From Acholeplasmatales bacterium (GTDB lineage Bacteria; Bacillota_I; Bacilli_A; Acholeplasmatales; Anaeroplasmataceae), in contig JAILPD010000032.1 in the NCBI GenBank assembly GCA_024690445.1, forward strand, positions 1 to 13,575: DNA of 13,575 nucleotides. Reading direction: 5' to 3'. The notes under the pieces were generated by a model, which worked only from the letters and a program-made list of their open reading frames with translations, was not told the DNA's origin and searched no databases. The position numbers and the translations under genes were made by a program. How positions within the stretch are numbered: the stretch's first letter is position 1; each line of letters opens with the position of its first letter. Shown here one piece after another: positions 3,011 to 13,157 of this stretch.

Positions 3011-3025
3011 TTAGTTTAGTTGACA
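3011..3025 (+). promoter_or_regulatory. Operator-like motif, copy 1, over the -35 box
   Basis: TTAGTTTAGTTGACA matches the motif at 3056-3070 in 13 of 15 positions and includes the whole -35 hexamer. Protein bound here would block RNA polymerase. FapR and FabT control fatty acid operons in many Bacillota, but the sequence does not clearly match either consensus as I know it. Confidence 0.5.
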
Positions 3026-3047
3026 TTATTTCTGTTTATTATATAAT
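3020..3047 (+). promoter_or_regulatory. Sigma-A-type promoter of the fatty acid/polyketide-type operon
   Basis: A perfect TTGACA (3020-3025) and a perfect TATAAT (3042-3047) are 16 bp apart. The predicted start is around 3053-3055, giving a 40-base leader to the first ATG at 3095. No other convincing promoter was found down to 13575, so this is probably the main promoter for 13 genes. Its -35 box lies inside one copy of a repeated motif and its start point inside another, consistent with repression by a DNA-binding regulator encoded elsewhere. Confidence 0.88.
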
Positions 3048-3094: not shown

Positions 3095-3337
3095 ATGACA
3101 GATTTAGAAATTAAACAGCAGTTAAAAGATTTTATCGTTTCAGAATTAGGTGTAGATGCAAATGAATTACAATTCGATACACCATTATTCGGTGATGGAA
3201 TCGGTCTTGATTCAATTGACTCAATTGAAATCATTTCATTTGCTGATGAGGCTTTCGGTGTTTCAATGAACGGTGTTGCAAAAGAACATTTCTTATCAAT
3301 TGACACTATCGCTGCTTATATTGCTGACAAACAGTAA
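3095..3337 (+). CDS. Acyl carrier protein 1 (polyketide/aryl-polyene-like motif)
   Basis: This small acidic cytosolic protein carries growing acyl chains as thioesters on a phosphopantetheine arm. At 80 residues it has normal ACP length. The arm attaches to Ser40 in GLDSID (37-42), at the start of helix II. The preceding LFGDGIGLDSID (31-42) is longer and more Gly-rich than the usual DLGADSLD of housekeeping AcpP, and resembles carrier proteins of aryl polyene and type II polyketide loci. The start has AGGAG at 3081-3085. It is the first gene of the operon and is separated from the ketosynthase by an 84-base gap with a strong hairpin, which could allow extra ACP production. A second, more standard ACP lies at 7739. 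The activating synthase AcpS/Sfp is not in the window. Confidence 0.93.
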   Translation: MTDLEIKQQLKDFIVSELGVDANELQFDTPLFGDGIGLDSIDSIEIISFADEAFGVSMNGVAKEHFLSIDTIAAYIADKQ

Positions 3338-3349
3338 TAAATCGAAGAT

Positions 3350-3374
3350 TTATCCCAGCTTCGTGCTGGGATAA
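3350..3374 (+). promoter_or_regulatory. Intercistronic hairpin between ACP 1 and the ketosynthase
   Basis: TTATCCCAGC (3350-3359) pairs perfectly with GCTGGGATAA (3365-3374) around a TTCGT loop, a 10-bp stem with a G/C-rich top. Only four T residues follow (ATATTTT), so full termination is unlikely. Partial termination, or protection of the ACP message from 3' decay, would raise ACP over the downstream enzymes. Confidence 0.75.
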
Positions 3375-3421: not shown

Positions 3422-5809
3422 ATGACAGAAAATAATAATAGATGCGTTGTTACAGGCTTAGGCTTAATCAACGCAATTGGTAATAATGTAAATGAATGCT
3501 GGAATAATGCATTAAATTCCGTTACAGGAATTAAGAATACTACAACAGTTGATACTAAGGATTGTTATGCAACTTTAGCAGCTGAGGCTAATTTTAAGGA
3601 TTTAGATAAGATTCCTAATACAGAGAATTTAGATAGAGTTTCTAAATTATGTATTAAGGCTACATTAGAAGCAATAGAAGATGCTAAGTTAGCTGACTTT
3701 GGTGGTAACACTAGAGTATCAGTAATTATGGGTAGCTGTGTTGGTGGTGCTGTTTCTATCGATCATTATTATAGAAATGATAAGCCAGCATCTGATGTTT
3801 GCAAGATGCCTATTTCAGCTATCGCATCAAGCGTAGCTCAATATGTTCATGCTGGTGGTGTTGTAACTAATATTGCTAACGCATGTGCTGCAGGTACAAT
3901 TTCTATCGCATATGCATGTGATTTAATTAGAGCTGGTAAGGCTGATATCGTTATTGCAGGTGGTGCTGATGCATTCGCATCTGTTCCATATTCTGGATTC
4001 TTAGCATTACATGCATTAGATTCAAATCCATGTTCACCATTCAATAAGTGCACTGGTATCACATTAGGTGAAGGTTCAGGTGCTGTTATTGTTGAATCAT
4101 ATGAGCATGCAATGAAGAGAAATGCTAAAGTTTATTGTGAAGTGTTAGGCTCAGGTGTATCATCTGATGCTCATCATATTACAGCTCCAAGAGAAGATGG
4201 AGAAGGTCAGATGAATGCTATTAATTGGGCAATTAATACATCTGGTGTAAAGAAGAATGAGATTGGTTATATCAATGCTCATGGTACTGGTACTGCTAAG
4301 AATGATAATGCTGAATTCTTATCATTACATACAATCTTCGATAATGAAAACGATAATTTATCAGTATCATCAACTAAGGCAATGGTTGGTCACTGCTTAG
4401 GTGCTGCAGGTGCTATTGAAGCAGTATTTGCTATTAAGGCATTAACTACTAATAAGGTTCCTGCAACTTTAGGATATGATAGTGATGATTTAGTAAGACT
4501 TGAGGAAAAGGCTGGAAAGATTGATTTCATTCCTAACAAGTCTAAGGATAAAGAATTAAATACAGTTATGTCTAATTCGTTCGCATTTGGTGGAAATAAC
4601 GCAAGTATTATTTTCTCTAAAGATAAGGGTGATGTTAAGACATCTAATGATAATGGTAAGGTGTATGTTACTGGTTTTGGTATTGTAACTCCATTTGGTA
4701 ATGGTGTTGAGGCTTACATTAATAACATCAATAATAATGTAAAGCCTGAATCTAATAGCATTCATTCAACAGTAGTAGCTGATGAATATGCTAAGTATGG
4801 TCAAAAGCCAACATATCGTAAGCATGATAATTTATCACAGCTTCAAGTATTATCTGGTATGCAAGCACTAGAAAATGCTAATATCACTGTAACTCCAGAG
4901 AATGCTACATCAATTGGTATTGTTGAAGGTACAGCTGATGGTGCTATGGGTACATGCTTACAATTTACAGAAAATATTGTAGAAAAGGGCTGTGCAAATG
5001 GTTCTGCATTTAAATTCCCTAATACAGTTTATAATGCTGCAGGTGGATATTTATCAATCTGTACTGGTATTAAGGGTTATAACGTTACAGTAACAAATGG
5101 TAGCCAATCAGGTTTACAATCTGTAGCTTATGCAACTAACATTATCCGTCAAGGTAAGGAAAAGTGCATTTTAGCAACTGGTACTGATGAAAATATTGAG
5201 GCTATCGCTGAAGTATATGGTAAGCTAAATGTTGTATCTAGCGATGTAACATTACCATTTGAAGGTAAGAATGGATTTACATTATCTGATGGTTCTGTAA
5301 CTATCGTATTAGAAAATGATAAGGATGCTAAGGCTCGTGGTGCTAAGAAGTATGCAGAAGTATTAGGATATGGTATGGCAACATGTGCTGTTGAATTTGG
5401 TAAGGTTAAAGGTTCTGATAAGGGCTTAGATGAGGCTATTAAGTTAGCATTAGCTGATGCTAATTTAACTATTGATGATATCGATACTATTTCAGGCTTT
5501 GCTTGTGGTTTAAAGACTATTGATGATATTGAATTAAATTCATTAAAGAGAGTATTTGGTAAGTCATTAGAAAATAAGAAGTTAATTGAGGTTAAGAATC
5601 ATGTTGGTGAGGCAAGAGCTGCTGCTGCATCTCTAAGCTTAGCTCATACAGCTTTAATGTTATCAGGTGATATTAAGTCTGATAATGGTTATAAGGTGGT
5701 AAATGATAAGGCTTCAAAGATTACAGTTGAAGCTAAAGATATGAAGAATGTATTATGTATTGCGTACGCTGCAGGTGGTACATATACTGCAATTGTTATT
5801 ACAAAGTAG
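3422..5809 (+). CDS. Tandem beta-ketoacyl-ACP synthase: active KS fused to an inactive, chain-length-factor-like KS
   Basis: KS enzymes condense malonyl-ACP with an acyl chain. At 795 residues this is about twice the length of FabF. Domain 1 (6-400) has every catalytic residue: Cys155 in NACAAGT, His287 in NAHGTGT, Lys319 in STKAMVGH, His324, and the SNSFAFGGNNAS end motif (384-395). After a polar linker (401-411), domain 2 restarts with VYVTGFGIVTPFGNG (414-428), but the Cys site reads GSQSG (Ser561), the first His aligns with Ala694 and the second with Glu730, while Lys725 remains. It is probably noncatalytic, like the chain-length factor of type II polyketide KS-CLF pairs. Fusion would fix a 1:1 pseudodimer. 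AAGGAG (3408-3413) supports the start. Reading is unbroken and codon use matches the neighbours, so this is not an assembly artefact. Product class is uncertain: fatty acid or polyene. Confidence 0.92.
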   Translation: MTENNNRCVVTGLGLINAIGNNVNECWNNALNSVTGIKNTTTVDTKDCYATLAAEANFKDLDKIPNTENLDRVSKLCIKATLEAIEDAKLADFGGNTRVSVIMGSCVGGAVSIDHYYRNDKPASDVCKMPISAIASSVAQYVHAGGVVTNIANACAAGTISIAYACDLIRAGKADIVIAGGADAFASVPYSGFLALHALDSNPCSPFNKCTGITLGEGSGAVIVESYEHAMKRNAKVYCEVLGSGVSSDAHHITAPREDGEGQMNAINWAINTSGVKKNEIGYINAHGTGTAKNDNAEFLSLHTIFDNENDNLSVSSTKAMVGHCLGAAGAIEAVFAIKALTTNKVPATLGYDSDDLVRLEEKAGKIDFIPNKSKDKELNTVMSNSFAFGGNNASIIFSKDKGDVKTSNDNGKVYVTGFGIVTPFGNGVEAYINNINNNVKPESNSIHSTVVADEYAKYGQKPTYRKHDNLSQLQVLSGMQALENANITVTPENATSIGIVEGTADGAMGTCLQFTENIVEKGCANGSAFKFPNTVYNAAGGYLSICTGIKGYNVTVTNGSQSGLQSVAYATNIIRQGKEKCILATGTDENIEAIAEVYGKLNVVSSDVTLPFEGKNGFTLSDGSVTIVLENDKDAKARGAKKYAEVLGYGMATCAVEFGKVKGSDKGLDEAIKLALADANLTIDDIDTISGFACGLKTIDDIELNSLKRVFGKSLENKKLIEVKNHVGEARAAAASLSLAHTALMLSGDIKSDNGYKVVNDKASKITVEAKDMKNVLCIAYAAGGTYTAIVITK

Positions 5810-5821
5810 GAGGATAGAAAA

Positions 5822-6550
5822 ATGGTTGCTATCGTTACAGGTGCTTCAAGAGGTATTGGTAAGGCATGTGCTGTTAGACTTGCAAAGGATGGTTATACAG
5901 TAGTTATCAATTATTCTCATAATGAGGCAAAAGCTCAAGAAACATTAGATGAAATTAAAGCATTTGGTGGAAATGGAATTATTTATAAGGCAAATGTATC
6001 AAACCGTGAAGAGGTAAATCAAATGGTTAGAGATGTTGCTAAAGAATTTGGTTCTATTGATGTATTAGTTAATAATGCAGGTGTTGTTAGAGATCAATTC
6101 TTATTAATGATGACTGAAGAAAATTTAAATGAGTGCTTCGACTTAAATGTTAAGGGTTATTTCTATATGGCTCAAGCTGTTGCTTTAAAGATGTTTAAAA
6201 AGAAGAAGGGTGTCATTATTAATATGTCATCAGTAAGTGGTAAATATTCACTTCCTGGTCAAAGTGTATACGGTGCTACTAAGGGTGCTGTAAACCAAAT
6301 GACAGCTACATTAGCTAAGGAATTAGCTCCATATGGAATTAGAGTTAATGCTGTAGCTCCTGGTTTTATTGAAACAGAAATGCTAGACGCAATTCCTGAA
6401 GATAAGAAGGAAGAATACTTAAAGGTTATTCCTCAACATAAGTTAGGGTCTACACAAAATATCGCTGACTTAGTATCTTTCTTAGCTAGCGACCAATCTT
6501 CATATATTACTGGTCAAGTAATTACTATTGATGGAGGATTATCACTATGA
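5822..6550 (+). CDS. fabG: 3-oxoacyl-ACP reductase (FabG)
   Basis: FabG is an NADPH-dependent short-chain dehydrogenase that reduces the 3-ketoacyl-ACP made by the ketosynthase to 3-hydroxyacyl-ACP. Its 242 residues are normal length. TGASRGIG (6-13) binds the cofactor, NNAG (84-87) is structural, and the catalytic set is Asn109, Ser137, Tyr150 and Lys154 (YGATK). The C-terminal ITGQVITIDGG is typical of the family. AGGAGGA (5808-5814) overlaps the ketosynthase stop and sits 7 bases before the ATG. The stop overlaps the next gene in an ATGA junction, so fabG and fabZ are translationally coupled. Confidence 0.95.
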   Translation: MVAIVTGASRGIGKACAVRLAKDGYTVVINYSHNEAKAQETLDEIKAFGGNGIIYKANVSNREEVNQMVRDVAKEFGSIDVLVNNAGVVRDQFLLMMTEENLNECFDLNVKGYFYMAQAVALKMFKKKKGVIINMSSVSGKYSLPGQSVYGATKGAVNQMTATLAKELAPYGIRVNAVAPGFIETEMLDAIPEDKKEEYLKVIPQHKLGSTQNIADLVSFLASDQSSYITGQVITIDGGLSL

Positions 6551-6993
6551 TCTTAATTAATGAGATTAATGAAAAGATTAAGCAACGTCCACCATTCCAA
6601 ATGATTGACCGCGTTACTGAAATTGTTCCAAATGAAAGTGCAGTTGGTATTAAGTGTGTTTCAGTAAATGAACCATATTTTATGGGTCATTTCCCTGGAG
6701 CTCCTATTATGCCAGGTGTATTAATTATTGAAAGCTGTGCTCAGTTATGCTCATTAGTATTTGAGGCTGATGGCACAGATACTGATAATATTTATGTATT
6801 ATTAAAGGTTGATGGCTTTAAGTTCATTAAGGCTGTTATTCCTGGTGATGTATTAAATATTAATGTTACTAAGACTAAGGTTTTAGGTCCTATTACAACA
6901 TTTGATTGTAAGGTTATTGTAGATGGTAATATTTATTCAAAGGGTACTTTATCATTTACAAAGGTTCCAAAGGATACTATTTATACTAGATAA
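6547..6993 (+). CDS. fabZ: 3-hydroxyacyl-ACP dehydratase (FabZ)
   Basis: This is a hot-dog-fold enzyme that removes water from 3-hydroxyacyl-ACP to give trans-2-enoyl-ACP. The hallmark GHFPGAPIMPGVLIIES runs from residue 47 to 63 and carries the catalytic His48 and Glu62. At 148 residues the length is normal for FabZ and shorter than FabA, which also carries a different motif. The ATG overlaps the fabG stop by four bases (ATGA), with GGAGGA (6533-6538) inside fabG. In an ordinary fatty acid cycle an enoyl reductase would act next, but none is recognisable here; the next gene is a flavodoxin-like reductase. If nothing reduces the enoyl product, chains would remain conjugated. Confidence 0.95.
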   Translation: MILINEINEKIKQRPPFQMIDRVTEIVPNESAVGIKCVSVNEPYFMGHFPGAPIMPGVLIIESCAQLCSLVFEADGTDTDNIYVLLKVDGFKFIKAVIPGDVLNINVTKTKVLGPITTFDCKVIVDGNIYSKGTLSFTKVPKDTIYTR

Positions 6994-7005: not shown

Positions 7006-7749
7006 ATGTGGGATAAGGACAAGAAGAAAAAAGTTCTTGTAATTAACGGAAGCCCAAAACTAAATAAAAGTACAACAATGTCTATTACTAATGCCTTTCT
7101 ACAAGGCTTAAATGAATTTAGTGAATGTGATATAGAAATTATCAATGTTCAAACATTAAATTTTAAGCCATGTACAGGATGCTTATCTTGTTGGGGAAGA
7201 ACAGAAGGAGAATGCATTATCAAAAATGATGATATTAGCATTGTAAAGGAAAAGATATTAAATGCTGATATCATTATTGAAAGCTTTCCACTCTTTTTCT
7301 TTGGTATGCCAGGTATATTAAAGTTATTTACAGATAGATTATTATCTATGATGCTTACATATCGTGGTCATAAACCACCAGAGGGAAATGAATCATTCCA
7401 TGGCTTAAGATATCCAGATACTAATAAGAGATTTGTTGTTATATCAAGCTGTGCTTATACTGAGGTTGATAGAGTATATGATTCAGTTAAAGCTCAATTT
7501 GATTTTATTTGTGGTAAGGGCTGCTATACAGGTATCTTTGTTCCACAAATTAAAACATTAGTAGATATTAAGAACGAGAATAAATTAAATCGATTCTTAA
7601 AAAAATATATTGATGCTGGTCGTAGCTTTGCAGAATTTGGAGAATTAGATGAAGAAGTATTACAATCTTTATCTAAACCACCATTTTCAGAAGGAGCCTA
7701 CAAAATTTTCTTAGATCAGTTTTGGCAGGAGGAAAAAAATGGCAAATAA
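7006..7749 (+). CDS. Flavodoxin-fold NAD(P)H-dependent FMN reductase family protein
   Basis: The 247-residue protein has an N-terminal VLVINGSPKLNKSTT (10-24), the FMN phosphate-binding loop of NADPH-dependent FMN reductases. CTGCLSCW (56-63) and Cys70 form a Cys-rich patch found in a subgroup of this family, and FPLFFFGMPGILKLFTDR (94-111) is the second flavin-binding region. A hydrophilic C-terminal tail of about 50 residues follows. AAAAGGTG (6993-7000) precedes the ATG. It sits between fabZ and ACP 2, in the place where an enoyl reductase would be expected, but it has no similarity that I can see to FabI, FabK, FabL or FabV. It could reduce a pathway intermediate, tailor the product, or supply reduced flavin; its substrate is unknown. 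It overlaps the next gene by 11 bases, so it is a genuine operon member. Confidence 0.87.
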   Translation: MWDKDKKKKVLVINGSPKLNKSTTMSITNAFLQGLNEFSECDIEIINVQTLNFKPCTGCLSCWGRTEGECIIKNDDISIVKEKILNADIIIESFPLFFFGMPGILKLFTDRLLSMMLTYRGHKPPEGNESFHGLRYPDTNKRFVVISSCAYTEVDRVYDSVKAQFDFICGKGCYTGIFVPQIKTLVDIKNENKLNRFLKKYIDAGRSFAEFGELDEEVLQSLSKPPFSEGAYKIFLDQFWQEEKNGK

Positions 7750-7984
7750 AACAGTTAGCTTTGAAGAAATTAAAAAACTAATTATTGAATGTGCAAATGT
7801 AAATACTGAAATAACTCCAGAATCTGTATTAAAAACTGATTTGGGATTTGATAGCATCTACGCTGTTGAAATGATTCTAGAATTAGAAGAACATTTTGGC
7901 ATTAAGATTGAAATAACTGAAATGGATACAATGATGACAGTAGCTGATGTTGTTAGCATTGTTGAAAAGAAATTAAGAGGTTAA
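7739..7984 (+). CDS. Acyl carrier protein 2
   Basis: An 81-residue phosphopantetheine carrier whose DLGFDSIYAVEM (34-45) marks the helix II start, with the modified Ser39. The rest (LELEEHFGIKIEI) is typical of ACPs. DSIY replaces the DSLD of most housekeeping ACPs, and the lysine-containing ends make it less acidic than usual. The start lies inside the end of the FMN reductase gene (11-base overlap) behind a perfect AGGAGG (7727-7732) with 6-base spacing, which predicts strong translation. It is quite different from ACP 1 (3095), so the two may serve different steps, for example starter or tailoring versus elongation. Confidence 0.93.
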   Translation: MANKTVSFEEIKKLIIECANVNTEITPESVLKTDLGFDSIYAVEMILELEEHFGIKIEITEMDTMMTVADVVSIVEKKLRG

Positions 7985-7988
7985 GCTT

Positions 7989-8411
7989 ATGAATTTAGAA
8001 GAAATTGAAAAATTAATGAAGCTTCTAGAAAATTCTTCACTTTCTTATTTAGAGGTTGAAGAAAATGGTTTAAAGATTAAATTAGATAAGAATAGTGGTA
8101 CAAGAGAAACTGTAGTTACTAAGAGTGAAAAAGAAGAAGGTGTAAGTAATTTAGCACCTACCTTAGAAGAAACAGGTAATGCTGTTACTGCGCCACTTGT
8201 TGGTACTTTCCATCAAGCACCTTATAAGGATGCTAAGCCTTTTGTTAGTGTTGGCTCTAAGGTTAAAAAGGGCGACAAGCTTTGTATTATTGAAGCTATG
8301 AAGGTTATGAATGAAATTACATCACCATTTGATGGAGTAGTTAAAGAAATACTTGTTAAGGATAATGATGTAGTTGATTTTGGTAAGAAACTATTTGTAA
8401 TTGGAGATTAA
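7989..8411 (+). CDS. accB: Biotin carboxyl carrier protein of acetyl-CoA carboxylase
   Basis: AccB carries the biotin that shuttles carboxylate between biotin carboxylase and the carboxyltransferase. The N-terminal region (1-35) is the usual helix-strand domain, followed by a charged flexible linker (about 36-65). The biotinyl/lipoyl-type barrel spans 66-139. EAMKVM (102-107) carries the biotinylated Lys105, and the thumb loop precedes it (75-90). Its 140 residues fall in the normal range, with a short linker. It lies 4 bases after the ACP 2 stop with AGAGG at 7976-7980, and 4 bases before accC. The matching biotin ligase is encoded in the same operon. Confidence 0.95.
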   Translation: MNLEEIEKLMKLLENSSLSYLEVEENGLKIKLDKNSGTRETVVTKSEKEEGVSNLAPTLEETGNAVTAPLVGTFHQAPYKDAKPFVSVGSKVKKGDKLCIIEAMKVMNEITSPFDGVVKEILVKDNDVVDFGKKLFVIGD

Positions 8412-8415
8412 TTTT

Positions 8416-9783
8416 ATGTTTAAGAAAATTTTAATTGCAAATCGTGGTGAAATTGCCGTAAGAATTATTAGAGCTTGTAAGGAGCTTGGTATTACTACGG
8501 TTGCAGTATATTCTAAGGCAGATGAGGATGCACTTCATAAGGAATTAGCTAATGAAGCTATTTGTATTGGTGATTCTGCCCCAAAGGATTCTTATTTAAA
8601 TGTAGAAAATATTATAAGTGCCGCTTGTCTTTCAGGATGTGATGCTATTCATCCTGGATTTGGCTTTTTATCTGAAAATCCTCAGTTTGCAAGAATGGTT
8701 GAAAAGTGTGGATTAACATTTATTGGACCTAACCCAGAAACTATGGAAAAGATGGGTAATAAGAGTGAGGCTGTTCAGTTGATGATTGAATCTGGTGTAC
8801 CTGTTGTTCCTGGTTCTCATAAGGCTGTATCACTAGAAGAAGGATTAGCATGTGCTGAGGAAATTGGCTTTCCAGTATTAATTAAGGCATCTGCTGGTGG
8901 AGGCGGAAAGGGTATTCGTCTTGTCGAAGATAAGGATTCCTTTACTTCTTTATATAATGAAGCTAAGGAAGAAGCTTTAAAATTCTTTTCTAATGATGAA
9001 TTATATATTGAAAAATTCATTAAGCATCCTAAGCATATTGAAGTTCAAGTAATGTGTGATAAGCATGGTAATGCTATTCATTTATTTGAAAGAAATTGCT
9101 CACTTCAAAGAAGAAATCAAAAAATGATAGAAGAAGCTCCATGTATTAGTATTTCTGCAGATTTAAAGGCTAAGCTTTATGAATCTGCATTAAAAGCATG
9201 TAAGGCTGCTAAATATGATTCAGTTGGTACTATTGAATTCTTAGTAGACGATTCAGAAAATTATTATTTCATTGAAATGAACACAAGAATTCAGGTTGAG
9301 CACTGTGTTACTGAATCTGTAACTAATGTTGATTTAGTTAAGAATATGATTAAGATTGCCTTTGGTTTACCACTTCAGTATAAGCAATCTGATATTAAAT
9401 TATATGGTCACGCTATTGAATGTCGTATTAATGCTGAAGATTCAGAAAATGATTTTAGACCTAATCCTGGTAAAATCACATTCATTAATACTCCAGGTGG
9501 TATGGGTGTAAGAATTGATTCTGCCGTATATCCTGGTTATACAATTCCACCATATTATGATTCTATGATATTAAAGGTTGTATGCTTCGCTAAGACAAGA
9601 CTTGAATGTATTAGAAAGATGAGACAAGCTTTAGAGGAATTAATAGTTGATGGTGTTAAAACAACTGTTGAATTTAATTATGTCCTATTGCATCATCCTG
9701 ATTTCATATTAGGACATTATGATACTTCATTTATTGAAGGCTTTATAGGAGAGTTAAAGGAAAATGCAAAACTCGTTCAATAA
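8416..9783 (+). CDS. accC: Biotin carboxylase subunit of acetyl-CoA carboxylase
   Basis: AccC uses ATP and bicarbonate to carboxylate the biotin on AccB. The start chosen is ATG 8416, giving MFKKILIANRGEIAVR, the standard AccC opening; an upstream TTG at 8401 in frame would add five residues inside accB and is not needed. The 455 residues hold the N-terminal domain (1-113), the ATP-grasp domain with the GGGGKG lid loop (161-166), and the catalytic EMNTRIQVEH (287-296), equivalent to Glu288, Asn290, Arg292 and Glu296 of the E. coli enzyme. Arg337 in ECRINAED matches the catalytic E. coli Arg338. After VEH the common Pro is Cys297, a minor oddity. The end overlaps accD by 20 bases. Confidence 0.96.
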   Translation: MFKKILIANRGEIAVRIIRACKELGITTVAVYSKADEDALHKELANEAICIGDSAPKDSYLNVENIISAACLSGCDAIHPGFGFLSENPQFARMVEKCGLTFIGPNPETMEKMGNKSEAVQLMIESGVPVVPGSHKAVSLEEGLACAEEIGFPVLIKASAGGGGKGIRLVEDKDSFTSLYNEAKEEALKFFSNDELYIEKFIKHPKHIEVQVMCDKHGNAIHLFERNCSLQRRNQKMIEEAPCISISADLKAKLYESALKACKAAKYDSVGTIEFLVDDSENYYFIEMNTRIQVEHCVTESVTNVDLVKNMIKIAFGLPLQYKQSDIKLYGHAIECRINAEDSENDFRPNPGKITFINTPGGMGVRIDSAVYPGYTIPPYYDSMILKVVCFAKTRLECIRKMRQALEELIVDGVKTTVEFNYVLLHHPDFILGHYDTSFIEGFIGELKENAKLVQ

Positions 9784-10639
9784 AAGAAAAGAAAAAATCC
9801 TAGAATTTAATACTGCGATGGAGGAGCTTAATTTAAGAAAAAGAATTACTGCCTCTATTCCAAAAGAAATTCCTGAGGATTTAATTGTAAAATGCCCAAA
9901 TTGTCAAAGATTTATTATTAAAGATAATTATATTTTAGATCATAAGGTTTGTCCTTATTGTAATCATCATGGAAGATTAACATCTAAAGAAAGAATTATC
10001 GATGTAATGGATTTAGGCTATACTGAGCTTTTTACTAATATAAAAGAAAAATATTTAGATTTCCCTGATTATGTAGAAAAGCTTGAAAAGGCAAAGAAGG
10101 ATTCCGGTGAAGATGAATCTGTAATGTGCGTTGAGGGAAAGATTGATGGTATTAAGTGCCTTGTTGGTGTTATGGATTCATTCTTTATGATGGGTTCTAT
10201 GGGATCTGTATGTGGAGAAAGAATTACTAGATTAATTGAAAAGGCAACAGAAGAAAAATTACCATTAATCTTATTTACAACATCAGGTGGAGCTAGAATG
10301 CAAGAGGGTGTAATTAGCCTATTCCAAATGGCTAAGACTTCAGCGGCTTTAGCTAAATATAGAGAAACTGGTCTTTATATTGCCGTATTAACTGACCCAA
10401 CTACTGGTGGTGTATCTGCCTCATTTGCAAGCTTAGCTGATATTACAATTGCTGAGCCTAATGCCTTAATTGGCTTTGCTGGTAAGAGAGTTATCGAAAG
10501 AACTATTAAAGAAACTCTACCTAAGGAATTCCAAACAGCTGAATTCTTATTAGATAAGGGTTATATTGATATGATTTCTGATAGAAAGGATTTAAAGAAG
10601 ACTTTAGCATTATTACTAAGACTTCATAATTATAGATAA
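9764..10639 (+). CDS. accD: Acetyl-CoA carboxylase carboxyltransferase beta subunit
   Basis: Together with AccA this subunit moves carboxylate from biotin to acetyl-CoA, making malonyl-CoA. The 291 residues begin with a basic tail, then the four-Cys zinc finger typical of AccD (CPNC 44-47 and CPYC 63-66). The crotonase-like core follows, with TSGGARMQEG (173-182) and DPTTGGVSASFA (211-222). The start at 9764 lies within accC, with AGGAGAG at 9747-9753 as the likely ribosome site. The gene ends one base before accA. The zinc finger and separate alpha and beta genes are those of the bacterial heteromeric enzyme. Confidence 0.95.
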   Translation: MQNSFNKRKEKILEFNTAMEELNLRKRITASIPKEIPEDLIVKCPNCQRFIIKDNYILDHKVCPYCNHHGRLTSKERIIDVMDLGYTELFTNIKEKYLDFPDYVEKLEKAKKDSGEDESVMCVEGKIDGIKCLVGVMDSFFMMGSMGSVCGERITRLIEKATEEKLPLILFTTSGGARMQEGVISLFQMAKTSAALAKYRETGLYIAVLTDPTTGGVSASFASLADITIAEPNALIGFAGKRVIERTIKETLPKEFQTAEFLLDKGYIDMISDRKDLKKTLALLLRLHNYR

Positions 10640-10640
10640 T

Positions 10641-11564
10641 ATGATATTAGAAGAAAATGAAAAAAAGATAAGTCTTCTTGAGCAAGAATTATTAGCATGT
10701 GATTCAGCTGATCCTAAGTATAAGGAATTAAAAAAAGAGCTTGAGGTTTTAAAGAATGAAACTTATAGTAATTTAAGTGCTTGGGATAGAGTATTAATCG
10801 CAAGAAGTGAAAAAAGAATTAAGGCTAAGGCTTTAATTGATAAGTTAATTACTGATTTTGTTGAATTACATGGCGATCAATATTTTTCTGATGACCAATC
10901 AATTATCTCAGGTATTGGTTATTTAGGTGATTTACCTGTAACTATACTTGCTCAAGCTAAGGGCGATAATCTAAATGAAAATTTAAAACGTAATTTTGGT
11001 ATGACTTCTCCAGAAGGATTTAGAAAGACTTTAAGACTTGCTAAAGAGGCTGAGAAATTTAAAAGACCAATTATTACTATAGTTGATACATCAGGAGCTT
11101 ACCCTGGTAAGGGAGCTGAAGAGCGTGGTCAAGCACGTGCTATAGCTCAAAATTTATATGAGTTTTCAAAATTAAAAACTCCTGTTGTAGCTATTATTTT
11201 ATCTGAAGGTGGATCTGGTGGTGCTTTAGCATTAACTGTATCTGATTATATCTTCATGTTTGAAAATGCTGTTTATTCAGTATTATCTCCAGAAGGATTT
11301 ACTTCAATTCTATTTAAGGATAAGGTACCTGTAAGTGAAGTAAGTGAGGTTATGAAGCTTACATCACATGATTTAATTAATTATGGTATCGCAGATGAAA
11401 TTATAGAAGAACCCCTTGGTGGTATTAGATATGTTAGTGATTCATTCGCAGAAAGCTTAAAGAATAGATTAATTGCTAAAATTAATGAATTAAATAAGAA
11501 AAGTGAAGAAGAATTATTAAATAATAGATACGAAAAATATAGAAGAATTGGAAGTGGAAATTAA
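10641..11564 (+). CDS. accA: Acetyl-CoA carboxylase carboxyltransferase alpha subunit
   Basis: This is the partner of AccD in the alpha2-beta2 carboxyltransferase. The 307 residues open with a helical Glu/Leu/Lys-rich segment (5-40) typical of AccA. The core has NFGMTSPEGFRK (118-129), VDTSGAYPG (148-156), the oxyanion-hole segment EGGSGGAL (189-196) and YSVLSPEG (212-219). The ATG is one base after the accD stop (TAATATG), and no Shine-Dalgarno sequence is visible before it. Translation probably depends on ribosomes finishing accD, which would keep the two subunits equal. The end overlaps the fabD start by one base (TAATG). Confidence 0.95.
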   Translation: MILEENEKKISLLEQELLACDSADPKYKELKKELEVLKNETYSNLSAWDRVLIARSEKRIKAKALIDKLITDFVELHGDQYFSDDQSIISGIGYLGDLPVTILAQAKGDNLNENLKRNFGMTSPEGFRKTLRLAKEAEKFKRPIITIVDTSGAYPGKGAEERGQARAIAQNLYEFSKLKTPVVAIILSEGGSGGALALTVSDYIFMFENAVYSVLSPEGFTSILFKDKVPVSEVSEVMKLTSHDLINYGIADEIIEEPLGGIRYVSDSFAESLKNRLIAKINELNKKSEEELLNNRYEKYRRIGSGN

Positions 11565-12469
11565 TGAAGCTTGCATTTTTATTTGCTGGACAAGGTGCAC
11601 AAGCAAAAGGAATGGGTAAAGACATTTATGATAATGTACCTCTAGCAAAAGAAATTTATGATAAATATCCTTTAATTAGAGATTTATGCTTTATTGATAA
11701 GGATGATGTTATTAATCAAACTAAATATGCACAGCCTGCTATGCTATTAACAAGCTATGTATTTGCTAAGGTATTAGAATCAAATGGTATTTTACCTGAA
11801 TATGCATGTGGTTTATCATTAGGTGAATATTCAGCACTAGCATTTGCTAATACTTGGGATTTAGATAATGCACTTGATATCATCTCTAATCGTGGTGATA
11901 TTATGCAAAATGCCTTACCTTTAGGTACTACTAAGATGGCTGCGGTAATTGGCTTAGATAGAGAAAAGGTATTAGAAGGTATCAAAACTAGTGAGGGTGT
12001 ATGCGAGGTTGCTAATTATAATTGCCCTGGTCAAATTGTTATTACAGGCGATAATAAGGGTGTTGATTTAGCAATGGAGAATATGAAGAATTTAGGAGCT
12101 TTAAAGGTAGTAGAATTAAATGTATCTGGTGCCTTCCATTCATCATTCTTGACTGATGCATCTAAGAAATTAAGAAAGGTATTAGATAAATATAATCCTA
12201 ATACTCCTAAATATAAGATTATTTATAATGTTTCTGGTAAAGAAGAAACAAGAAATATCAATGATATTTTAGAAAATCAAATTCATTCCTCAGTATATTT
12301 TGAGGATTCAATTCGTTATGCTATGGCAAATGGTGTAGATGCCTTTGTTGAAATAGGACCTGGTAAATCTTTATCTGGTTTTGTTAAGAGAGTAGATAGA
12401 AAGATTCCTTGCTATAACGTAAGTGATTTAGATTCATTAAAACAAACAATAGAAGCATTAAAGGCATAA
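11564..12469 (+). CDS. fabD: Malonyl-CoA:ACP transacylase
   Basis: FabD moves the malonyl group made by acetyl-CoA carboxylase onto ACP, feeding the ketosynthase. The 301 residues show the family's FAGQGAQ (7-13), catalytic Ser85 in GLSLGEYSA (83-91), Arg110 (NRGDIMQ), and catalytic His192 in GAFHS (189-193). The EIGPGKSLSGFVKR near 263-276 is also conserved. The length is normal. The ATG overlaps the accA stop by one base. Both malonyl-CoA synthesis and its transfer are encoded together, upstream of biotin supply genes. Some polyketide loci also carry a dedicated transacylase, so its presence does not by itself settle the product class. Confidence 0.95.
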   Translation: MKLAFLFAGQGAQAKGMGKDIYDNVPLAKEIYDKYPLIRDLCFIDKDDVINQTKYAQPAMLLTSYVFAKVLESNGILPEYACGLSLGEYSALAFANTWDLDNALDIISNRGDIMQNALPLGTTKMAAVIGLDREKVLEGIKTSEGVCEVANYNCPGQIVITGDNKGVDLAMENMKNLGALKVVELNVSGAFHSSFLTDASKKLRKVLDKYNPNTPKYKIIYNVSGKEETRNINDILENQIHSSVYFEDSIRYAMANGVDAFVEIGPGKSLSGFVKRVDRKIPCYNVSDLDSLKQTIEALKA

Positions 12470-12470
12470 T

Positions 12471-13157
12471 ATGATAACTAAGTTAAACTGGAAATTCAAA
12501 ACTAAATATCAATATTATTTAGTTGATACAATTAATTCAACTAATACTTATTTAAAGGATAATTATAATGAATATCCAGATAAGACTATTCTAATTGCTT
12601 TAGAACAAACTGCTGGTCGTGGAAGATATGATAGAGTTTGGAGAAGTGATAAGGATATCATTTTCTCTATTTTATTAAAGAAAAATGGTAATTATGAAAT
12701 TACTACTCCACTTGCAATTTGTATGGCATTAGATTCTTTTGACTTTAATGCTGGTATTAAATGGCCAAATGATATTTATTTAAATGATAAGAAACTTGCT
12801 GGTATTTTAATTGAAGATGTTTTCCAATTAAAGTTTGAAGCATCAATAATTGGAATTGGAATTAATCTTACAGATAAGGAATCTGTAGGTGGCATAGGAT
12901 TAAATATAAATATCGATAGATATGATTTAATTCATGCTATTATGAAAAACTTTGATTCATTAAATAAGCTTACACATGATGAATTAATATCTTTATATAG
13001 AAATAGAAATATTGTTTATAATAGAAAGGTTTATTATAAGGATAAGGTCTATGTAGCTAAAGATATTGATATTGATGGTCATTTAGTATTAGATGATGGA
13101 AAAAAGAAAATCGTTGTATCAAGTGATGAAATTAATATTAAGGAGTCATTATTATGA
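12471..13157 (+). CDS. birA: Biotin--[acetyl-CoA carboxylase] ligase, without DNA-binding domain
   Basis: This ligase activates biotin as biotinyl-AMP and attaches it to the Lys of AccB. The 228 residues contain only the catalytic and small C-terminal domains. STN (23-25) begins the fold, GRGRYDR (49-55) is the biotinyl-AMP loop, KWPND (97-101) and KKLAGILIE (107-115) surround the active site, and GIGINL (128-133) follows. The N-terminal winged helix of dual-function BirA is absent, so it should not act as a biotin-sensing repressor. AAAGG (12460-12464) precedes the ATG, which is one base after the fabD stop. The end overlaps bioY by four bases (ATGA). Confidence 0.93.
   Translation: MITKLNWKFKTKYQYYLVDTINSTNTYLKDNYNEYPDKTILIALEQTAGRGRYDRVWRSDKDIIFSILLKKNGNYEITTPLAICMALDSFDFNAGIKWPNDIYLNDKKLAGILIEDVFQLKFEASIIGIGINLTDKESVGGIGLNINIDRYDLIHAIMKNFDSLNKLTHDELISLYRNRNIVYNRKVYYKDKVYVAKDIDIDGHLVLDDGKKKIVVSSDEINIKESLL

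Follow-up and report, generated by a model that had tools for sequence, protein, structure and literature searches.

The 13,575-nucleotide stretch of Acholeplasmatales DNA analysed here (the window) encodes a protein of 795 amino acids that we favour reading as a single-chain ketosynthase–chain-length factor (KS–CLF), an iterative and probably polyene-type synthase whose product would be a specialised acyl chain destined for membrane lipids. Its open reading frame lies on the plus strand at positions 3422–5809, starts with ATG and has no internal stop codon. Only ketosynthase-type domains were recognised in the chain by Pfam, PF00109 and PF02801 occurring twice each (8e-43 and 1.1e-47), which bears out the sequence-only reading of two ketosynthase domains in one frame. 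As for FabF itself, the best NCBIfam model for each of the two halves, KS1 and KS2, was TIGR03150 (FabF), but the scores of KS1 (340.9 bits), KS2 (164.5) and the whole chain (492.4) were all below the NCBI cut-off of 493.75.

Catalytic residues were assigned by alignment with FabF, FabB and type II KS and CLF rows, and E. coli FabF provided the reference columns. At the columns that hold the catalytic residues of FabF (Cys, His, Lys and a second His), KS1 has C155, H287, K319 and H324, and KS2, in which the Lys alone is kept, has S561, F693, K725 and E730. Thus, all four KS1 residues named from the sequence, the replacement of the Cys by Ser561 and the Glu730 at the second His position were recovered, while the first His position of KS2, previously given as Ala694, was off by one and is F693. 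Across the interface stretch of FabF 114–146, KS1 lacks seven residues relative to E. coli FabF in the alignment and KS2 is not shortened, suggesting that KS1 may depend on KS2.

For an estimate of conservation, 202 sequences were pooled from the best 120 of 2282 and the best 120 of 1481 homology matches and from the ORFs of fetched loci. Removal of two short sequences and nine identical copies left 191 distinct full-length relatives, a set biased toward close relatives because it was drawn from best-120 lists. C155, H287, K319 and H324 are invariant in all 191. At position 561 the relatives carry A (93), S (38), T (21), N (16), I (10), F (6), C (4) or V, M and G (one each). Position 693 is F in 179 relatives and H in one, position 730 is E in 189 and D in two, and R732 is present in 191/191. 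The full catalytic set was found in KS2 of none of the 191. The four relatives with C561 (L025 1501-3933, P0018, P0031 and P0064) all keep F693 and E730 and are thus without both His residues; C561 together with H693 did not occur among the 191. Since this residue pattern is conserved across relatives, it is not a matter of chance.

These data bear on two other views of the second half. KS2 might be a KSQ-like malonyl-ACP decarboxylase that supplies an acetyl primer, which would fit the lack of FabH in genomes having only the fusion (see below) and the conservation of Gln562 one residue past the Cys column (187/191). We regard this as improbable. Gln was found at position 561 itself in 0/191 relatives, and both His positions are lost (F693, E730); KSQ decarboxylation depends on His. 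An annotated Streptomyces CLF (locus L079) has its Gln exactly at the Cys position, whereas in the window protein it follows one residue later. Alternatively, the protein might be an ordinary FabF-type enzyme carrying a decayed duplicate half without a role, as the lower conservation of KS2 compared with KS1 (mean majority share 0.65 versus 0.80 in the 191 relatives) and its FabF-like fold could suggest. Against this, identity across the 191 relatives reaches at least 97% at 63 positions of KS2, the fusion has kept its full length in both Anaeroplasma-type and Clostridia lineages, and it is KS1, not KS2, that is shortened at the interface stretch. Conservation clearly disfavours a useless KS2, and we give this explanation hardly any weight.

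The AlphaFold model of the full chain had a pLDDT of 91.1 and a pTM of 0.94. Its top structural match was 6riw, the KS–CLF of PfaC (TMq 0.79, 917 columns, 17% identity, rmsd 6.9), and both halves superpose on the 6riw didomain in a single alignment. The single chains in rows 2–50 of the same search reached a TMq of 0.44–0.46. In the VIA result for the whole model, the 50 rows spanned residues 1–402 only and did not include 6riw. By fold, the nearest neighbours of the KS2 model alone are FabF chains; rows titled KS/CLF correspond to the KS (A) chains 6kxd_A, 6kxf_A and 1tqy_A, and a chain named CLF was not among the structural matches listed for KS2 alone. A PDB sequence search with KS2 also gave FabF as best matches, with the actinorhodin CLF chain 1tqy_B at 1.1e-15. 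The interface segment of KS2 is weakly predicted (pLDDT 57 for block 531–540). As a whole, the model supports the view, already taken from the sequence, that KS2 would pack as a CLF-like partner at the KS dimer face and form a pseudo-dimer within one chain.

A tree was calculated from 28 halves and 21 single enzymes (49 rows, 407 columns). The 14 KS1 halves form one clade (100/99) and the 14 KS2 halves another (100/97), and both clades contain the fusions of Priestia megaterium pBM500 and of a Streptomyces plasmid. Because the half-clades are common to such distant fusions, the fusion is old and shared and its halves are not recent FabF copies. A recent FabF duplication is ruled out by these separate clades together with a half-to-half identity of 23.1%. 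KS2 and two CLF rows, one annotated as CLF and one assigned by our own reading, are located on one side of a 96/91 branch, with long branches. In AU tests, a grouping of KS2 with 11 FabF rows was weakly rejected (p 0.04) and a sister relationship of KS1 and KS2 was not (p 0.07), so that an older common origin of both halves would be compatible with the alignment. Residues, model packing and clades hence agree with the proposal of a ketosynthase fused to a CLF-like pseudo-enzyme, the second domain being inactive by its residues.

The window protein follows the type II KS–CLF pattern, an active Cys-His-His ketosynthase with a partner that has no catalytic Cys. In type II polyketide synthases the two are separate genes, and the ishigamide KS/CLF (6kxd) and the aryl polyene ApeO–ApeC consist of two chains each, whereas here one ORF encodes both. 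A FabF homodimer has two active sites. The didomain of PfaC (6riw) likewise carries KS and then CLF on one chain but belongs to a large multidomain synthase with further domains (DH); the window protein is a stand-alone didomain with discrete ACP, KR and DH genes. For PfaC-type PUFA synthases an intramolecular dimer is proposed in the accessible text of PMC13311796. That of PMC6985545 assigns CylI a part in the assembly of the granadaene chain and does not discuss a fusion. For CylI-like proteins, our comparison used the Priestia protein. The fusion on P. megaterium pBM500 (WP_013060151.1, 809 aa) is encoded in a plasmid cluster (L077 322-9418) with genes for a malonyl transferase, KR, ACP, DH, GcvT-like protein and PPTase, which we read from its annotation as cyl/granadaene-like. 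It shares with the window protein the single-chain two-KS architecture, the clades of both halves and the AFGGNN and PNTVxNAAxG motifs, but identity is 36.8% for KS1 and 30.0% for KS2, and a GcvT or glycosyltransferase was not recognised among the window proteins examined (nine by Pfam, ten by NCBIfam). A further fused KS–CLF is present on a plasmid of Streptomyces sp. HUAS 15-9 in a polyketide-like cluster (L078 4699-7053). Next to it lie another two single KS genes, a pair of dehydratase genes and a gene for KS III.

The fusion had been thought unusual. It is real, but natural fusions of KS and CLF are already known from PfaC and exist also in Priestia and Streptomyces. A stand-alone single-chain KS–CLF in these bacteria was not found among the literature titles and abstract beginnings listed. 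As far as our searches show, new are a stand-alone fused KS–CLF joined to an ACC-FabD operon, the 18 genomes in which no other KAS I/II-type enzyme was found, and its acyltransferase neighbours. Such a compact protein with discrete partners, present also in a named strain (see below), would allow the role of a CLF to be studied at a fixed 1:1 ratio. The cassette points to a special acyl chain in gut Bacillota, and the fusion marks genomes in which a KS–CLF may have taken over from FabF and FabH.

In the window, the fusion gene is part of a run of twelve genes with gaps of −20 to +84 bases (ACP1, fusion, FabG, FabZ, flavoprotein, ACP2, AccB, AccC, AccD, AccA, FabD and BirA). The features are listed in Table 1. 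In G016, a genome with FabF and no fusion, the order is ACP, AccB, AccC, AccD, AccA, FabH, FabK, FabD, FabG, FabF, FabZ and BirA. Compared with this operon, the window keeps the ACP-AccBCDA-FabD-BirA skeleton without FabH, FabK and FabF, and its FabG and FabZ are located in the cassette. This suggests that the cassette was inserted ahead of a canonical operon skeleton. The CX2CX2CX7C motif of the flavoprotein is present in 9/9 proteins examined, including that of the window; we take this protein to resemble iron-sulphur flavoproteins. The hairpin downstream of ACP1 and ahead of the fusion gene could raise the level of ACP1 relative to the genes downstream. Upstream of the operon (2138–2923) a rapidly diverging protein is encoded that is rich in Gly and His, ends in a C-terminal zinc ribbon and shows 42% and 53% identity to its counterparts in L001 and L002, where other operon proteins are 82–100% identical.

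Table 1. Features of the window around the fused KS–CLF gene.
Feature	Coordinates	Strand	Basis
Promoter-like TTGACA-16-TATAAT upstream of cassette	3020..3047	+	12/12 consensus match; consensus match only
ACP1, cassette acyl carrier protein	3095..3337	+	PF00550 2.1e-8; adjoins fusion in relatives
Terminator-like hairpin between ACP1 and fusion gene	3350..3374	+	Possible attenuator, putative function
KS1, catalytic ketosynthase half, residues 1–404	3422..4633	+	C155, H287, K319, H324
KS2, CLF-like half, residues 408–795	4643..5806	+	S561, F693, K725, E730; own model pLDDT 88.4
FabG-like ketoreductase (SDR)	5822..6550	+	PF13561/PF00106; TIGR01830 283.2 bits, below cut-off 297.75; in relatives' cassette
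FabZ-like dehydratase	6547..6993	+	PF07977; NF000582 above cut-off
Flavodoxin-fold FMN reductase-like protein	7006..7749	+	PF02525/PF03358; CX2CX2CX7C motif
ACP2, first gene of canonical operon skeleton	7739..7984	+	PF00550; same place in G016 operon
AccB	7989..8411	+	TIGR00531 above cut-off
AccC	8416..9783 (ORF from 8401; start taken 8416)	+	Our reading of translation; same order in G016
AccD	9764..10639	+	TIGR00515 above cut-off
AccA	10641..11564	+	Our reading of translation; same order in G016
FabD malonyl transferase	11564..12469	+	TIGR00128 above cut-off
BirA-like biotin ligase, last of run	12471..13157	+	PF03099

Based on these data we propose the following course of synthesis. In KS1, Cys155 is predicted to carry the growing chain and His287 and His324 to act on malonate, giving decarboxylative condensation with malonyl-ACP. 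The non-catalytic KS2 would complete the pseudo-dimer and line the end of the acyl tunnel, thereby setting chain length, and the fusion would fix KS and CLF at 1:1. The fused protein presumably iterates with ACP1, FabG, FabZ and FabD. KS–CLF chemistry is primed by malonyl-ACP decarboxylation, and since no FabH was recognised in the window, this kind of priming is likely here too. As a dedicated enoyl reductase was not recognised there either, the product is likely to be a (poly)unsaturated acyl-ACP, which the flavoprotein, being Fe-S-flavoprotein-like, may reduce or trim. The chain would then enter membrane lipid by the PlsX/PlsC route. A lipid destination is suggested by other loci, for PlsC those of the Clostridia type; the window contains neither an acyltransferase nor PlsX.

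The distribution of the fusion was determined in the family to which G002 belongs (55 genomes); locus L002 of G002 (Acholeplasmatales) encodes a fusion 93% identical to the window protein. All 55 are draft assemblies of unstated completeness. The fusion is present in 22/55 genomes, in 19 over the whole query (within three residues) and in three partially. A separate FabF-like protein was found in eight genomes, four of which carry both (dual genomes), and 29/55 gave no match to the KS query. In a class-level sample, all four carriers among 395 genomes belong to this same family. FabH was detected in seven of the 55 genomes, namely 4/4 dual and 3/4 FabF-only, but in none of the 18 fusion-only genomes or the 29 without a KS match. 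A survey of enoyl reductases, covering the FabK type, detected FabK (E <= 1e-30) in 18/55 genomes: 8/18 fusion-only, 4/4 dual, 4/4 FabF-only and 2/29 without a KS match. Thus, in eight fusion-only genomes the pathway may have an enoyl reductase at its disposal and the product may be saturated. Genes adjoining FabK in the family (aldo/keto reductase, TldD-like, phosphatase family and CvfB-like) gave no functional clue. In two genomes without a ketosynthase match (G043 and G042; loci L051 and L056), a FabK-like gene adjoins a FabZ-like gene. In two of the dual genomes, G037 and G028, acc and fabD genes are missing from the stretch read at the FabH-FabK-FabG-FabF-FabZ locus, and probably the two systems share these genes.

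A different reading assigns the fusion to primary metabolism. It would have replaced FabF and FabH in fatty-acid synthesis, priming itself by decarboxylation of malonyl-ACP and making the bulk membrane fatty acids with ACP, FabG, FabZ and FabK or another reductase. Several observations are consistent with this. In 18/22 family carriers no KAS I/II-type enzyme other than the fusion was found and FabH was not detected (0/18), and the cassette is joined to the canonical Acc-FabD-BirA skeleton. FabD, found once in each of 25/55 genomes, is present in 22/22 fusion genomes, 3/4 FabF-only genomes and 0/29 without a KS match, and it lies on the fusion contig in 17 of the 22, including all four dual genomes. 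PlsX was found in 6/6 family carriers checked, and a FabK-like protein is retained in the eight fusion-only genomes mentioned above. On the other hand, FabK was not found in 10/18 fusion-only draft genomes, the cassette coexists with canonical fatty-acid synthesis in other carriers, and related fusions sit in polyene-type clusters. Moreover, the 29 genomes without a KS match and the DegV/FakB-type proteins in 55/55, which do not discriminate between the groups, imply that fatty acids can be scavenged, and uptake could cover the remaining need. We therefore consider a replacement unlikely, and it is doubtful that in the 18 family genomes the single-chain KS–CLF displaced FabF and FabH altogether and is the one condensing enzyme that both initiates and elongates the chains when membrane fatty acids are made de novo. 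If it did, primary fatty-acid synthesis would be run by a polyene-type KS–CLF. The sequence-only description of the locus as an apparently primary malonyl-CoA operon is in part upheld by the 18 carriers; the coexistence with FabH, FabK and FabF in 4/22, and a separate FabF in most Clostridia-type carriers, speak against it.

The specialised KS–CLF that we prefer is further illustrated by the Clostridia-type carriers. The fusion was found at E <= 1e-100 in 6/299 sampled genomes of the family of G007 (Lachnospiraceae), and it was found in 6/391 of its class, two of the latter being only 32% identical. We searched seven such carriers, G007–G013 (five Lachnospiraceae, one Ruminococcus and one Bacteroides, the last probably misnamed). 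A separate FabF was present in 6/7, FabH in 5/7 and a strong FabK in 6/7; G010 gave no FabF, FabH or strong FabK match. The canonical loci of G007, G009, G012 and G013 each contain FabH, FabK and FabF. An ORF for a PlsC-like acyltransferase adjoins ACP1 in 13/16 Clostridia-type loci, as labelled by BLAST and confirmed by Pfam in L008, L010 and L014; in this count L093 and L008 come from one genome, upstream sequence is missing for L013, and L076 and L095 are without a PlsC-like ORF. Other neighbours are TetR regulators (Pfam-confirmed in L011 and L076, a weak match in L004), patatin (L010 and L016) and PPTase (L009). The flavoprotein is absent from the stretch read in L012, L013, L091, L092, L095 and L096. 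In L097–L099 a shorter fused KS–CLF (about 754 aa) occurs, and FabG is followed directly by the flavoprotein, no FabZ being labelled in the stretch read.

[Eubacterium] eligens ATCC 27750, a named strain, encodes the same fused protein and cassette at locus EUBELI_RS11640. There, a 627-kb plasmid carries the cassette, which has an AccD of its own, an AccA-like ORF, PlsX and TetR, whereas that of the window precedes ACP-AccBCDA-FabD-BirA. Two loci from the class of G007 contain fusions with 32% identity to the window protein. In L100, GcvT, the fused KS–CLF, the flavoprotein family (Pfam) and a glycosyltransferase were confirmed, and L101 shares this gene arrangement, its GcvT, fusion and flavoprotein being assigned by BLAST label. 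The position of a flavoprotein relative beside a GcvT-type gene and a fused KS–CLF suggests a possible link of the cassette to cyl-like clusters. Taken with the neighbours in the Clostridia-type loci, these two loci point to a specialised acyl chain.
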